Source of the DNA: Frischella perrara
Lineage (GTDB): Bacteria; Pseudomonadota; Gammaproteobacteria; Enterobacterales; Orbaceae
Length of the DNA stretch: 64,000 nt
Reading direction: 5' to 3'
Assembly (NCBI RefSeq): GCF_000807275.1
Contig: NZ_CP009056.1
Location: 1,737,192-1,801,191, forward strand
Below are positions 18,996-24,720 of this stretch, piece after piece. The translations under genes were made by a program, and so were the position numbers. A model generated the notes under the pieces. It worked only from the letters and a program-made list of their open reading frames with translations. It did no database searches and was not told where the DNA came from. Position 1 is the first letter of the stretch; every line of letters begins with the position of its first letter.

Positions 18996-20540
18996 TTAAA
19001 AACTAAAATAGTTAAGACCTAAAGCTACAATAATAATAACAGCTATTATGTAATTTAATCGCCTTTGCCTGATTTGATTTTGCCGCAGCTGTTGATTAAT
19101 TTCTAACAATTGTTGATTAAGCTGTTTAGTGGTTAGCTCATAATTTTTAATTTTATTTGGCAAATCAGGTAATAAACTGTGCCACTGTGGTAGTGAATGC
19201 ACAACATTTTTGGCTAGATGTAAAGGGCTAATTTGTTCTTGATACCAAGCCTCTAAAAATGGTTTTGCTGTTGACCATAAGTCTAATTGAGGATAAAGCC
19301 TACGTCCCAACCCTTCAATATAAAACAGCGTTTTTTCTAATAATACAAGTTGTGGTTGGATTACCATATCAAATTGACGTGCAACTTTAAATAAATTAAA
19401 TAAAATTTGCGCAAATGAAATTTCACCCAGCGATTTTTCAAAAATTGGATCACAAACTTCACGCATAGCCAATTCTAATGAAAATATATCTGTATGTTCA
19501 GGAACCCAACCCGATTCAATATATAATTCGGCAATTTTGTAATAATCACGATTAAAAAAAGCAATGAAATTTTTAGCCAGAAAGTGTTGATCTTCTTTAC
19601 TTAGTTCACCCATGATCGCACAATCAATTCCTATATAACGAGGATTTATCGGATCTGTGGCATCAATGAAGATGTTACCGGGATGCATATCAGCATGGAA
19701 TAAATTATCGCGAAACACTTGAGTAAAAAAAGTATTTACCCCTCGCTCGGCTAATAATTTCATATTAACACCACGTTCTATTAGGGCTGACATATCATTA
19801 ATCGGAATGCCAGATATACGTTCTTCAACCATTACATTAGTCCGACACAATTCGCGATAAACATAAGGTATATAAAGCATATCGCTATTAAGAAAATTAT
19901 GCCGTAAACGCTTGGTATATTCAGCTTCACGCAAAAGGTTTAATTCATTTAAAATCGTTCTTTCATAATCCCTTACCACTTCCTGTAATCGTAATCGTTT
20001 AGCATCTGGATTAGCATTTTCAATTCGATTAGCAAACCAGTACATCAACGATGTGTCGGCTAAAATAAGCGGTTGGATATTAGGACGAATAACTTTAATA
20101 ATAACATCTGCACCACTAGATTTAAGTTTAGCTGTGTGAATTTGAGCGATGGATGCTGAAGCTAAAGGTGTTAAGCAAAAATCCGTAAATAAACTCTCAA
20201 TTGGCACGGATAAAGACTGTTCAATAATTTGTTGAGCTAAGTGACCATCAAATGGTGCAACATTATCTTGTAGCTGTGAAAGTGAATGTAATAGATCGTC
20301 CGACAATAAGTCCTGACGGGTAGAGAGCATTTGACCAAACTTAATCCAAATCGGTCCTAATTCTTGTAATGCTAATTTTAAACGCTCACCACCAGTGCTA
20401 TTCTTCGCTTTTTTTCTTACCCAAAATAGTGAAGCTAACACTATTTTAAATCGTTTAGGTAATAATGATTTTGGTAATAATTCAACTAATTGATAAGCAC
20501 GAAATACTGCCAAAATTTGGTATAGCCGCCAATACTTCAT
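18996..20540 (-). CDS. ubiB: UbiB, ubiquinone-biosynthesis atypical kinase/ATPase
   Basis: UbiB is a membrane-associated protein-kinase-like ATPase needed for ubiquinone synthesis. The KxGQ motif (WIKFGQMLSTRQD, residues about 66-78), the Ala-rich nucleotide loop (LASASIAQIHTAK) and the catalytic HADMHPGNIF (about 273-282) are present. The C-terminus has a Gln/Asn-rich helix and one hydrophobic segment (YIIAVIIIVALGL), whereas E. coli UbiB has two. A TTG at 20552 extends the frame, but GAGG before the ATG at 20540 favours this start (514 aa). It starts 12 bases after ubiE; ubiJ, normally between them, is absent. Confidence 0.93.
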   Translation of the reverse strand: MKYWRLYQILAVFRAYQLVELLPKSLLPKRFKIVLASLFWVRKKAKNSTGGERLKLALQELGPIWIKFGQMLSTRQDLLSDDLLHSLSQLQDNVAPFDGHLAQQIIEQSLSVPIESLFTDFCLTPLASASIAQIHTAKLKSSGADVIIKVIRPNIQPLILADTSLMYWFANRIENANPDAKRLRLQEVVRDYERTILNELNLLREAEYTKRLRHNFLNSDMLYIPYVYRELCRTNVMVEERISGIPINDMSALIERGVNMKLLAERGVNTFFTQVFRDNLFHADMHPGNIFIDATDPINPRYIGIDCAIMGELSKEDQHFLAKNFIAFFNRDYYKIAELYIESGWVPEHTDIFSLELAMREVCDPIFEKSLGEISFAQILFNLFKVARQFDMVIQPQLVLLEKTLFYIEGLGRRLYPQLDLWSTAKPFLEAWYQEQISPLHLAKNVVHSLPQWHSLLPDLPNKIKNYELTTKQLNQQLLEINQQLRQNQIRQRRLNYIIAVIIIVALGLNYFSF

Positions 20541-20552
20541 CCGTATCCTCAA

Positions 20553-21335
20553 TTAAAATTTAAAACCAATATGCAAAGCAACAATTCCACCCGTCATATT
20601 ATGATATTGCACATCTCTGAATCCGGCTTCTTCCATCATTTTTTTTAATTTCAATTGATCGGGATGCATACGAATGGATTCGGCTAAATACCGATAACTA
20701 TCGGCGTCATTGGCTACAATTTTTCCCATTAGTGGTAACATGGAAAAGGAGTACAGATCATAAGCTTTATTCAATAATTTATAATCAGGCTTAGAAAATT
20801 CCAAAATTAACAATCGCCCACCTGGTTTTAAAACTCGCCACATAGATTTGAGCGCTTTATCTTTATTGGTAACATTACGTAAACCAAATGAAATCGTTAT
20901 GCAGTTAAAACTATTATCAGCAAATGGCAAGGCTTCAGCATTCGCTTGAACATATTCGATATTCTTGAATAGCCCTTTATCGCGTAATTTTTCACGCCCC
21001 ACTTTTAGCATTGATTCATTGATATCAGCTAACACCACGAGCCCGTCATCACCAACTAATTGTGAGAATTTAGCTGTTAAATCACCTGTTCCACCTGCTA
21101 AATCTAATACTTTTTGCCCGCGTCTTACACTACTGTATTCAATCGTAGTTTTCTTCCAAAGGCGATGAATACCAAATGACATTAAATCATTCATGACATC
21201 ATATTTATCAGCAACCGAATGAAACACTTCGGCTACACGTTTTTCTTTCTCTTGTTTTGGGATTTGTGTATATCCAAAATCAATAGTTTCTTGATTATGT
21301 TGGTCATTTGACTGTGGATTAGAAGTATTTGGCAT
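20553..21335 (-). CDS. ubiE: ubiquinone/menaquinone C-methyltransferase
   Basis: This SAM-dependent methyltransferase C-methylates the benzoquinol (and demethylmenaquinol) ring. Motif [16 protein letters not shown] binds SAM (residues about 76-90). UbiE signatures include [17 protein letters not shown] (about 45-61) and the later [11 protein letters not shown] and LILEFSKP. Length (260 aa) is normal, with a short polar N-terminal extension. It is the first gene of a ubiE-ubiB pair. Confidence 0.96.
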
Positions 21336-21522: not shown

Positions 21523-22458
21523 CTAATTTAATTGATTTCTCACTTGTTCAAGAACTGCTTCAAAAATCGATAATTGGCTATGTTTCGAATTAAAATCATG
21601 ATAATTAATGACTAAGTCAAAAGGGTATTTATTAATTAATTCATTTAGCGTTTGATCTTCTTTATGAAACATGTTCTGAAAAGACTGCTGTAACGTAACA
21701 AAATCAAGCGCAGTAAATAATACCCTATTTGCATTTAGTGCAGCTTCATCAATACGTTGAGCTTGTAATTTAGCTATTCGAATATAATCATCAGCGGTTA
21801 CTGATATAGGTATCTTTCCATAGTGATCATAGTGAAAATAATTACTATATCCATTATTAACATAAACGGTATTAAAAATATTAGCCAATTGTTGAGCAAT
21901 CTCATCAAATTGATTTTGTTTACTCACTAGAGCAATTTTGGTAACAAAAAAAGGTCTGGCAGCCTTGGCAAGATATTGCCAGTTTTTGTAAGGGTTATCC
22001 CGAATCTGAGTAGCGCTAATATTAATAAAATCTCGATTTACATCTATTAGTTTTACTGTGCAATGAAAAAAACGCTCATATTCAACAACATCTTGCTGTT
22101 CACTGGTAAAAATGACCGTTGGTTTCACTTGATGCTTGGCTAAAATTGCTTTTACACGATCACTCCAATCTCTCCAACCATTTGGATAATACGCAATTCC
22201 CTCTTCATTTAATACATGGATGTAGATATTTTGATGATTTTGGAAGGTTCTTTTTAACCAATAAAATCTATCACTTACTTGCGGTTGTCTTGGCATATGA
22301 CTTGCTTCAAACAACTTCAAATCGCGAAGTTGCTCACAACCTAAAAAAACATGTAACACTTCCACTTGTGTTATTGCTTTCTCAATTAGGTAGATATGAC
22401 CACAATGTAATGGATAAAATTTCCCAAAAATAACACCTATTTTGCATTTAGTTTTCAT
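21523..22458 (-). CDS. nadR: NadR-like NMN adenylyltransferase with degenerate kinase domain
   Basis: NadR proteins make NAD from NMN and phosphorylate nicotinamide riboside. The nucleotidyltransferase domain looks intact: GVIFGKFYPLHCGHI (residues about 8-22), YPNGWRDWSDRVKA and ISATQIRDNPYKNW. The helix-turn-helix of E. coli NadR is absent. The C-terminal kinase domain is recognisable after ARPFF, but the Walker A GGESSGKS of its relatives is replaced by SKQNQFDE, and the FIDTDF Walker B-like strand reads FTALDF. The protein is also cut short (311 aa). Kinase activity is therefore doubtful. An ATG at 22473 is an alternative start; neither has a clear ribosome site. Confidence 0.85.
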   Translation of the reverse strand: MKTKCKIGVIFGKFYPLHCGHIYLIEKAITQVEVLHVFLGCEQLRDLKLFEASHMPRQPQVSDRFYWLKRTFQNHQNIYIHVLNEEGIAYYPNGWRDWSDRVKAILAKHQVKPTVIFTSEQQDVVEYERFFHCTVKLIDVNRDFINISATQIRDNPYKNWQYLAKAARPFFVTKIALVSKQNQFDEIAQQLANIFNTVYVNNGYSNYFHYDHYGKIPISVTADDYIRIAKLQAQRIDEAALNANRVLFTALDFVTLQQSFQNMFHKEDQTLNELINKYPFDLVINYHDFNSKHSQLSIFEAVLEQVRNQLN

Positions 22459-22473
22459 AATATTGTGATACAT

Positions 22474-22699: not shown

Positions 22700-23809
22700 C
22701 TATTTAGCATTTGTGCTGGTCAGTTTAGTTAATAAAATGCCAGTTAAAACTGAGATGTTTAATGCAGGCATAATATCACTACCGGGTAAATAGACAATCT
22801 TATCAGCAAAATTGGCCAGTTTAGTGTTAATCTGTTGAAAAATGACAAACACAGTCTTAGCCGACACAGATAATTTAGCCAAATTTTCCGCTTTTAGTGA
22901 ATTGATTTTACACGGTAACAAGGCAATGATTTGATAGCCTTGTTGTTTAAATTGATCAAGTGAAGCAATAAAATCATCCGCATGTATAGGCTCAAGATAC
23001 TCAGAACCCCCCTCGGAAACCCGAAGACAAGCACCATTATCTAATAGGTCAGGCTGTCTTAGTAATAATCCATTCACATTAAAAAATGCTGCTGTTCGAG
23101 CTATAGCACCTAAATTATGCGGATTATTGATATCATCAATTGCTAGGACATAATTCTTCTTATCATCGATATGTTGTGATAGATAATTACCAGTCGATAA
23201 TGTTGCACGTTTTTTCACAATTAAACAAACCCCACCATGATGCGGTGTTTGGGCTATTTTGTTCATTCGTTCTTCATCAATAATGTCATAGCCGAGGCGA
23301 TGTTCAACTAACCATGCAATTAAGGCTTTAAATTCATAGGTTTTTTCTTCTAAAAAAAACGCTTTAATTATTGATTCTGGACGCTTTGCAAAAACTGCTT
23401 TACAACTATTTTCGCTATACACTAGAGTTTCTTGCTTGCGTTGTCGTCGTACCTGTTGCTCAAATGATGCGGGATGATCATTCTCAAAGGTATTCAATTG
23501 CTCAGATTTTTGTACCCGACTTTTCCATGGCGAATCAGTTGATGTAGCAAGATGACGTGTACGAGGTTTAAATGTCTCAATACGATTATCATTTTCTCGA
23601 TGATTATGGGAACGATCGGCTCGTCCAGTACCTTGATACGGTTTTCTGGATTCATTTCGTTTAGCAAATGAAGATTGAGACTGTTTATCACGCTCTGTTT
23701 TAGAACGTTTATTAGGTTTATTTACATTTGATTTAGTGGCGTAAAAAACAGTTGGTTTTGCTTTATCTTCGGTTAATGGATTGCCATTTGATGACGATTG
23801 GTCATTCAT
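22700..23809 (-). CDS. yfiF: YfiF-like SPOUT (TrmH-family) RNA methyltransferase
   Basis: The 369-aa protein has a long basic, disordered N-terminal tail (1-120, rich in Lys/Arg/Ser/Asn), a small substrate-binding domain (about 130-200) and a C-terminal SPOUT fold. Motif 1 is clear (DINNPHNLGAIARTAAFF), and motif 3 retains PALNISVLTGIL. The motif 2 region, normally LGxE, reads VFVIFQQINTKL, so the SAM-pocket Gly and Glu are gone. It resembles E. coli YfiF, whose own target is not well defined. It lies 14 bases downstream of nusB. Confidence 0.85.
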   Translation of the reverse strand: MNDQSSSNGNPLTEDKAKPTVFYATKSNVNKPNKRSKTERDKQSQSSFAKRNESRKPYQGTGRADRSHNHRENDNRIETFKPRTRHLATSTDSPWKSRVQKSEQLNTFENDHPASFEQQVRRQRKQETLVYSENSCKAVFAKRPESIIKAFFLEEKTYEFKALIAWLVEHRLGYDIIDEERMNKIAQTPHHGGVCLIVKKRATLSTGNYLSQHIDDKKNYVLAIDDINNPHNLGAIARTAAFFNVNGLLLRQPDLLDNGACLRVSEGGSEYLEPIHADDFIASLDQFKQQGYQIIALLPCKINSLKAENLAKLSVSAKTVFVIFQQINTKLANFADKIVYLPGSDIMPALNISVLTGILLTKLTSTNAK

Positions 23810-23823
23810 AATATTCTCACAAT

Positions 23824-24246
23824 TTAACGGGTTCTGATCGTTGGCGCAACTTTGTCAAGCACACCATTAATAAATTTATGACTATCTTCAGCGCCAAAAG
23901 TCTTAGTAAGATCAATTGCCTCATTAATAACAACTTTATAAGGTACATCTTCTCGTTTTAATAATTCATAAACGGCGATTCTTAAGATGGCATGTTCAAC
24001 AAAACCTAATTCATCTAAACTACGCTCGTTAAGAAAGCTTTCCATTTTTGTGTCCAGTTCACTGCTATGAGAAATAACACCATGCAATAATTCGCGAAAA
24101 TATTTTTTATCAACGCCTTTCATATCTTGTTCAGCCATGAAACTAGCTTCGATTTCAGATAAGTCATTTTTTGAAACTTGCCAAGAATAGATAGCTTGAA
24201 CGGCACATTCGCGTGCTCGACGACGAGGATTAACATTAGTCGTCAC
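23824..24246 (-). CDS. nusB: transcription antitermination factor NusB
   Basis: NusB binds boxA RNA together with ribosomal protein S10 and supports rRNA antitermination. The 140-aa all-helical protein starts with [18 protein letters not shown] (residues about 5-22) and has the conserved [11 protein letters not shown] and KFINGVLDK segments near the end. It begins three bases after the ribH stop codon, the usual coupling. Confidence 0.96.
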
Positions 24247-24249
24247 AGT

Positions 24250-24720
24250 TTACCCCTTGATACGTTTTAAAGTGTTATACATCTCAAGTGCTGTTAATGC
24301 AGCTTCAGCACCTTTATTGCCAGCCTTTGTGCCAGCTCTTTCAATTGCTTGTTCAATATTTTCAGTGGTTAAAATCCCAAAACCAACAGGAATAGAATAA
24401 TCCAAACTAGTAGATAATAAACCTGAACTTGATTCACCGGCCACATAATCAAAATGGGCAGTGCTACCACGTATTACCGTACCTAATGCAACAATAGCAT
24501 CATATTGCTTACTTTCGGCAACTGCTTTTGCTGTTAAAGGAATTTCATAAGCACCAGGAACTTTGATTATCACAATATTTTCATCTGCTACCTGACCGAT
24601 ACGTTTTAACGCATCAACAGCCCCTTCAACTAGGCTGTCATTAATAAAATGATTAAATCGAGCAACAATAATCGCGACTTTTGCTTCTGGCGCGGCCACT
24701 TGCCCTTCAATAATTTGCAT
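24250..24720 (-). CDS. ribH: 6,7-dimethyl-8-ribityllumazine synthase
   Basis: Lumazine synthase joins the ribityl-aminopyrimidine to dihydroxybutanone phosphate, the penultimate riboflavin step, in an icosahedral shell. The 156-aa sequence has [18 protein letters not shown] (residues about 21-38), [12 protein letters not shown] (about 54-65) and the catalytic-loop segment [15 protein letters not shown] (about 80-94). It is the first gene of ribH-nusB-yfiF. In E. coli thiL follows nusB; here yfiF does. Confidence 0.96.

Follow-up and report, generated by a model that had tools for sequence, protein, structure and literature searches.

A family-wide short NadR paralogue with retained NMN adenylyltransferase motifs and a kinase remnant under purifying selection

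The window analyzed here, a 64,000-nucleotide stretch of the Frischella perrara genome, carries on its minus strand a short paralogue of NadR (21523..22458; 311 aa) that lacks a helix-turn-helix (HTH) domain and was delimited by protein homology and a comparison of start columns. On the plus strand the same interval contains 19 stops in frame 1, and the reading frame is real only on the minus strand. Translation more probably starts at the ATG at 22458: a methionine occupies this column in 27 of the 35 intact short copies compared, and the column of the ATG further upstream, at 22473, has one in five of the 35. Five neighboring genes lie on the minus strand as well: ubiB (18996..20552), ubiE (20553..21335), a tRNA/rRNA methyltransferase-like gene (22700..23809; 254.1 bits with PRK10864, under the cut-off of 267), nusB (23824..24246) and ribH, encoding lumazine synthase (24250..24720). 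The order ribH-nusB-methyltransferase-short NadR was found at all 12 loci compared, drawn from 12 of the 36 genomes of the family Orbaceae, and ubiE-ubiB come next after the short gene at ten of them. The kept gene order speaks for vertical descent of the short NadR within the family.

The protein is homologous to the NadR of PDB entry 8x7f (E = 5.5e-70) and to that of H. influenzae (1lw7, E = 5.7e-63), the Haemophilus protein with which the original prediction had proposed to align it. It passes the NCBIfam model for trifunctional NadR, PRK08099 (261.3 bits, cut-off 201), and falls below the cut-off of the domain model TIGR01526 (231.7 vs 341.15). A Pfam scan of the protein placed the nucleotidyltransferase domain alone above cut-off (21.5 bits, cut-off 21) and found neither an HTH nor a kinase domain. 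The absence of the DNA-binding domain, as originally predicted, is borne out by the start of the reading frame at the NMN adenylyltransferase (NMNAT) domain, whereas Pfam HTH_3 is found in the full-length NadR L042. Because the PRK08099 score exceeds its cut-off, the automatic label "trifunctional NadR" is expected although two of the three functions appear to be missing, and the gene is likely to be misnamed by automatic annotation.

The NMNAT domain spans approximately residues 6-170 (21949..22443, minus strand), with limits judged from the alignments with 1lw7 and 8x7f and from an AF2 model. Its nucleotidyltransferase motif GKFYPLHCGH (22396..22425, minus strand) and its ISATQIR motif (22000..22020, minus strand) follow the patterns GKFYPLHxGH and ISATx[IV]R, both of which are matched by every one of the 35 short copies, in agreement with the prediction that the nucleotidyltransferase motifs are intact. 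The motifs that mark the NMNAT part of the NadR family (GKFxPxHxGH and ISxTxxR-type) are thus present in every intact copy, the window gene included, and the YPxGWxxWS segment of NadR is also retained in all 35. The threonine of ISATxIR is kept in 11 of 11 f9 NadRs examined, whereas the 12 rows of the f19/f27 group (one row being an f27 protein and one broken) all lack it; full-length NadRs of the family have Thr or Ser at this position (33/33). From the motif likeness to 1lw7 and 8x7f, we take f9 to be probably the Pasteurellaceae and f19 probably the Enterobacteriaceae. Enterobacterial NadR is a weak NMNAT. In the short NadR, K13, H21 and R153 are invariant (35/35) and align, with an offset of one, with Salmonella NadR K72, H80 and R212, for which ATP and NAD contacts are reported from docking and, in part, from mutation (PMC12421817). 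The kept motifs predict NMNAT activity for the short NadR.

The remainder of the protein, approximately residues 171-311 (21526..21948, minus strand), is a remnant of the ribosylnicotinamide kinase domain, without the LID and the C-terminal end. It matches the kinase domain with an hhalign probability of 99.4 over remnant positions 1-117 of 140, compared with 2.1 for a column-shuffled control and 1.0 for the NMNAT domain. Motif counts refer to the 35 intact short copies, including the window gene and leaving out the broken copy of genome G013. Where full-length NadR reads LGGESSGKST, the window protein reads VSKQNQFDE (21901..21927, minus strand), which confirms the predicted replacement of GGESSGKS by SKQNQFDE. 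The P-loop GxxxxGK[ST] is present in none of the 35 short copies versus 33 of 33 full-length NadRs of the family. The former P-loop stretch is shortened, with 24 different sequences among the 35, and two copies still have a lysine in the P-loop Lys column without the motif. The kinase segment WE[YF]GR[DEN]Y, which we take to be the nicotinamide riboside (NR) pocket, aligns with NNGYSNY (21838..21858, minus strand); xNGYxNY occurs in 34 of 35 copies, the Trp, Glu and Arg are kept in none, and Glu is replaced by Asn in 34.

The Walker-B-like strand FTALDFVTL (21691..21717, minus strand) had been predicted to have lost Asp residues. This holds for the first Asp of DTD, which is Ala in the window protein and Ser, Ala or Thr in 32 of 35 copies (Asp in three), and does not hold for the second, which is kept in the window protein and in 34 of 35. 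Beyond what had been predicted, the C-terminal end of the kinase and the WVADGLR-like LID are likewise deleted, the latter in 35 of 35 short copies while it is present in 33 of 33 full-length family NadRs. A model and docking of H. influenzae NadR point to Lys241 and Asp306 as key catalytic residues, with Asp306 proposed as the catalytic base (PMC13256911); in our own reading of the motif, these would be the P-loop Lys and the first Asp of DTD. With neither P-loop nor LID, the C-terminal domain should not phosphorylate NR. A sequencing error, raised originally as a possible cause, is excluded because the P-loop loss is common to all 35 intact copies from as many genomes.

As had been predicted, the kinase region is in frame and folded-looking, the fold itself being a model. 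AF2 with eight sequences gave a pLDDT of 80.8 and a pTM of 0.76, and with the single sequence a pLDDT of 30.3. Model residues 5-311 superimpose on NadR 8x7f with Z 31.4 and 2.1 Å over 305 residues, and the comparison with 1lw7 yields Z 30.9. In ten-residue blocks, remnant residues 171-200 and 221-280 have pLDDT values of 72 to 87; the two blocks of 201-220, which include the new NGYxNY motif, have values of 53 and 43, and those of 281-311 range from 50 to 68. It should be mentioned that the other seven sequences in the alignment were those of viral NadR-like proteins with 22-31% identity to the window protein. Their consensus contains a P-loop, which may bias the model toward an ordinary, kinase-competent fold. 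Homology to the kinase together with a predicted kinase-like fold without the catalytic residues characterizes the remnant as a pseudokinase.

Among 60 genomes searched, the own genome included, the short NadR was found in all 36 of the family, as an intact reading frame in 35 of them, spanning five genera, and in broken form in G013. Four of the other 24 genomes have a NadR match, with longer frames (369 to 764 aa). A class-wide sample (369 genomes, E <= 1e-20) yielded no further short copy, the matches outside the window having frames of 336 to 412 aa. An order-wide sample (394 genomes) yielded none outside the family, the frames of its matches having at least 328 aa except for G096; short-copy calls in both samples were made mostly by length and identity only. 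The exceptions in the order-wide sample are a 257-aa frame with stops in G096, a further frame with a stop in G307, and fusions of 764 to 785 aa in f20. G096 is a reduced genome of 1.0 Mb, and its NadR (L119) is disrupted by stops. The P-loop GxxxxGK[ST] is present in 25 of 26 NadR rows read outside the family, the remaining one being the broken L119. One weak, partial match from the contig scan (L032) was not used. The plasmid collection gave 18 records with a match and the phage collection 407, below 60% identity among the matches listed (10 of 18 and 20 of 407, respectively). NadR homologues were noted on phage and viral contigs (L132 583-1623, L133 595-1722, and L134-L140); those of Vibrio phage ICP1 and Enterococcus phage EfV12-phi1 (L132 and L133) both have a P-loop, and the ICP1 gene is annotated as hypothetical. 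The paralogue is not described in the titles or abstract openings, among the matches listed, of open-licence literature on NadR, NMN adenylyltransferase, and NAD in Orbaceae, Gilliamella and Frischella.

The kinase remnant is under purifying selection. Over close pairs of short copies (99 of 595), the median dN/dS is 0.086 for the NMNAT part and 0.144 for the remnant. Across all 595 pairs, identity averages 0.75 for the NMNAT part and 0.60 for the remnant, and the pattern is reversed in full-length NadRs, with 0.76 for NMNAT and 0.87 for the kinase (11 sequences, nine of the family). The short and full-length copies therefore look specialized in opposite directions. For column conservation in the remnant, sequences were weighted to an effective number of 16.5. 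The weighted mean majority frequency is 0.63 for the whole remnant, and the majority residue reaches at least 0.9 in 30 of 140 columns. The former P-loop, at 0.49, has drifted to an unexceptional degree, 25 of 133 windows being equally low; loop 213-226 and the C-terminus (316-aa numbering) have majority frequencies of 0.50 and 0.49.

A second, complete NadR is encoded in the same 2.69 Mb one-contig genome (matched part C1:386218-387060), with HTH, GGESSGKS and LID, and with HTH_3, CTP_transf_like and AAA_28 above the Pfam cut-offs. The PnuC gene (PF04973) comes after it. Across the family, trifunctional NadR was found in 33 of 36 genomes, in all 33 with GGESSGKS; 32 of these genomes also carry the short copy intact. 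In the other three (G002, G004 and G007), trifunctional NadR was not found, and the short copy is intact in each. Each of these three genomes has a divergent protein resembling NadR (L039, L040 and L041), which reads GKFAPLTRGH and GQESTGKS. Since full-length NadR has NMNAT motifs of its own and these three genomes have another NadR-like protein, a second NMNAT would not be strictly needed.

The NAD pathway of the family was examined for the genes named in the original prediction: PnuC is present, and NadD over cut-off, in 36 of 36 genomes, and the single NadM model searched, the NadM-Nudix model NF003786, is over cut-off in none of the 60 genomes and in one of 14 controls. Each of the 36 genomes also has one NAPRTase-family gene of PncB-like length (frames of 397 to 431 aa). 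In genus g5, 25 of 27 genomes were noted to carry a pncB-like gene at a distance of about 10-11 kb from the short nadR; G016 has the two genes on separate contigs, and in G011 they lie far apart. NadA was found in none of the 24 family genomes examined, and LigA is over cut-off in 22 of 22. The NMN deamidase PncC, searched with one model, was found in none of the 36 family genomes versus 20 of the other 24. Most bacteria are described as recycling NMN through PncC, and NMN as potently inhibiting NAD-dependent DNA ligase (PMC3680494). Cells without an NMN deamidase have to adenylylate or degrade the NMN that arises from DNA ligase and NAD turnover, and NMN recycling in the family thus probably leans on an NMNAT. 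A consensus-based scan for NadR operators was dropped: the window has 16 matches where 12.9 were expected, a count reached by 20 of 100 shuffles, and the genome has 40 per strand, compared with 35 in the control.

Considering these observations together, we propose that the short NadR is probably a family-wide NadR paralogue specialized as a plain, non-regulatory NMNAT, with its pseudokinase domain kept for structure or allostery. NMN and ATP would bind at the N-terminal site, where the kept residues suggest conversion to NAD and pyrophosphate. The fold core of the pseudokinase, retained under selection, may be a structural and possibly allosteric part that serves the enzyme as a scaffold or detects a ligand bound in a rebuilt pocket. 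The job of the protein would be the steady conversion back to NAD of the NMN set free by NAD-dependent DNA ligase and by other turnover of NAD, leaving trifunctional NadR, where present, with NR phosphorylation and regulation. A dedicated NMNAT free of a repressor domain would fit the gap in NMN recycling suggested by gene absence, a matter of gene content and not of flux.

A new role for the dead kinase domain, raised originally as an alternative to simple loss, would be in keeping with the selection on the remnant and with its pocket motif. In its most specific form, the domain has been rebuilt as a ligand sensor, in which the NGYxNY pocket binds a pyridine nucleotide or another metabolite and controls the adjacent NMNAT; the short NadR would then be an NMNAT under allosteric control by a pseudokinase domain that serves as its sensor. 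The former NR-pocket segment has a weighted mean majority frequency of 0.87, and only six of 134 seven-residue windows, the segment itself included, are as conserved. A pocket role is countered by the short copy of G007, where NGYxNY is absent (DSCAHDY), and by the loss of the remnant in G013. We regard the sensor as a tentative and rather unlikely version.

The co-occurrence of the two proteins in 32 genomes might instead indicate that the short NadR is a regulatory partner in mixed oligomers with trifunctional NadR, tuning its DNA binding or kinase. Crystal packing and ultracentrifugation led to the proposal that H. influenzae NadR is a tetramer, but the same source gives L. lactis NadR as monomeric in solution (PMC7221760). 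The short copy also stays intact in all three genomes without trifunctional NadR and retains the NMNAT motifs in 35 of 35 cases, and in the window genome the identity between the two proteins is only 48% over the NMNAT domain and 30% over the kinase part. We give such a partnership little chance. A shift of the NMNAT domain to another mononucleotide, for example NaMN, making it a nucleotidyltransferase of another pathway, has a slim chance as well: position-specific changes are seen in this domain, with LGCE in short copies versus mostly LCSD in full-length NadR, but NaMN is already served by NadD in every family genome, and YPxGWxxWS is invariably retained.

The broken copy of G013 (L038) could be taken as a sign that the short gene is decaying and its remnant the debris of ongoing loss. 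The NMNAT part remains open there (185-aa frame), and the kinase remnant is broken by stops and frameshifts. A Trp at a column invariant in the other 35 copies is changed to Gly, and the NMNAT dN/dS to the nearest relative is 0.124, versus 0.053 to 0.117 for pairs without G013. The broken remnant and the Trp to Gly change indicate that the short gene or its remnant was dispensable at least once. The remnant also evolves faster than the NMNAT part, as the mean identities show. However, the reading frame is intact in 35 of 36 genomes of five genera, and both the low dN/dS of the remnant and its 30 highly conserved columns argue against decay, which we consider very improbable. The main idea of the original prediction, that the organism has lost NR salvage, has next to no chance of being correct, since the dead kinase site of the short copy is accompanied in the same genome by the complete NadR with GGESSGKS, LID and HTH, followed by the PnuC gene, so that by gene content NR salvage is not lost.

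The origin of the short NadR was addressed with trees of both domains. In the NMNAT tree, the short clade adjoins the f9 NadRs with a UFBoot of 100, and in a second NMNAT tree the short clade and f9 NadRs group at 98, with the divergent L080 also in the group. In the kinase tree, the short clade stands beside L063, itself an abnormal kinase, with a support of 100. In an AU test run with fewer replicates than the program advises, neither duplication within the family (p = 0.08) nor the f9 grouping (p = 0.45) is rejected. Two full-length NadRs were noted to have abnormal kinase sites: L063 (G061) reads GAEQTGKS and WQYYKEY and has lost the LID, and L077 (G165) reads GAERSGKS and WNYGREF with an altered LID. 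Kinase decay in NadRs may be recurrent.

NadR is a textbook example of a multifunctional protein in NAD metabolism. One of its activities apparently split into a dedicated paralogue, with a dead domain under selection, would offer a natural test of the non-catalytic role of the kinase domain. For cells without a detectable NMN deamidase, in which NMN would inhibit DNA ligase, the short NadR suggests a simple answer to NMN disposal. The automatic name "trifunctional NadR" can mislead metabolic models of bacteria of this family.

We have compared the short NadR to known systems. With trifunctional NadR (HTH, NMNAT and ribosylnicotinamide kinase; e.g. 8x7f), it shares the NMNAT domain and the kinase-fold core, being 43% identical to its full-length counterpart in the same genome and 38-39% to 8x7f, and it differs in lacking the HTH, the P-loop, the LID and the first Walker-B-like Asp. 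The H. influenzae NadR (1lw7) has an NMNAT with SATxIR like that of the short NadR, a motif also found in 11 of 11 f9 NadRs; in H. influenzae the protein functions as an NR kinase, which the short NadR, judged by its residues, should be unable to do. NMN adenylyltransferases that stand alone or are fused to Nudix (NadM and the archaeal NMNAT) have the same nucleotidyltransferase fold and the same single activity as predicted for the short NadR. Its descent from NadR and its domain of kinase origin set the short NadR apart from these enzymes. A further system is that of the f20 fusions, at L081 593-2884 (-), L091 1143-3464 (+), L117 and L118 (genomes G054, G078, G097 and G114). All four have a NadR-type NMNAT and, like the short NadR, miss the P-loop at the aligned place; they differ in a C-terminal part of about 500 aa, which in L081, the one scanned, is without a Pfam match above cut-off. 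The f20 fusions possibly represent a separate way of replacing the NadR kinase.
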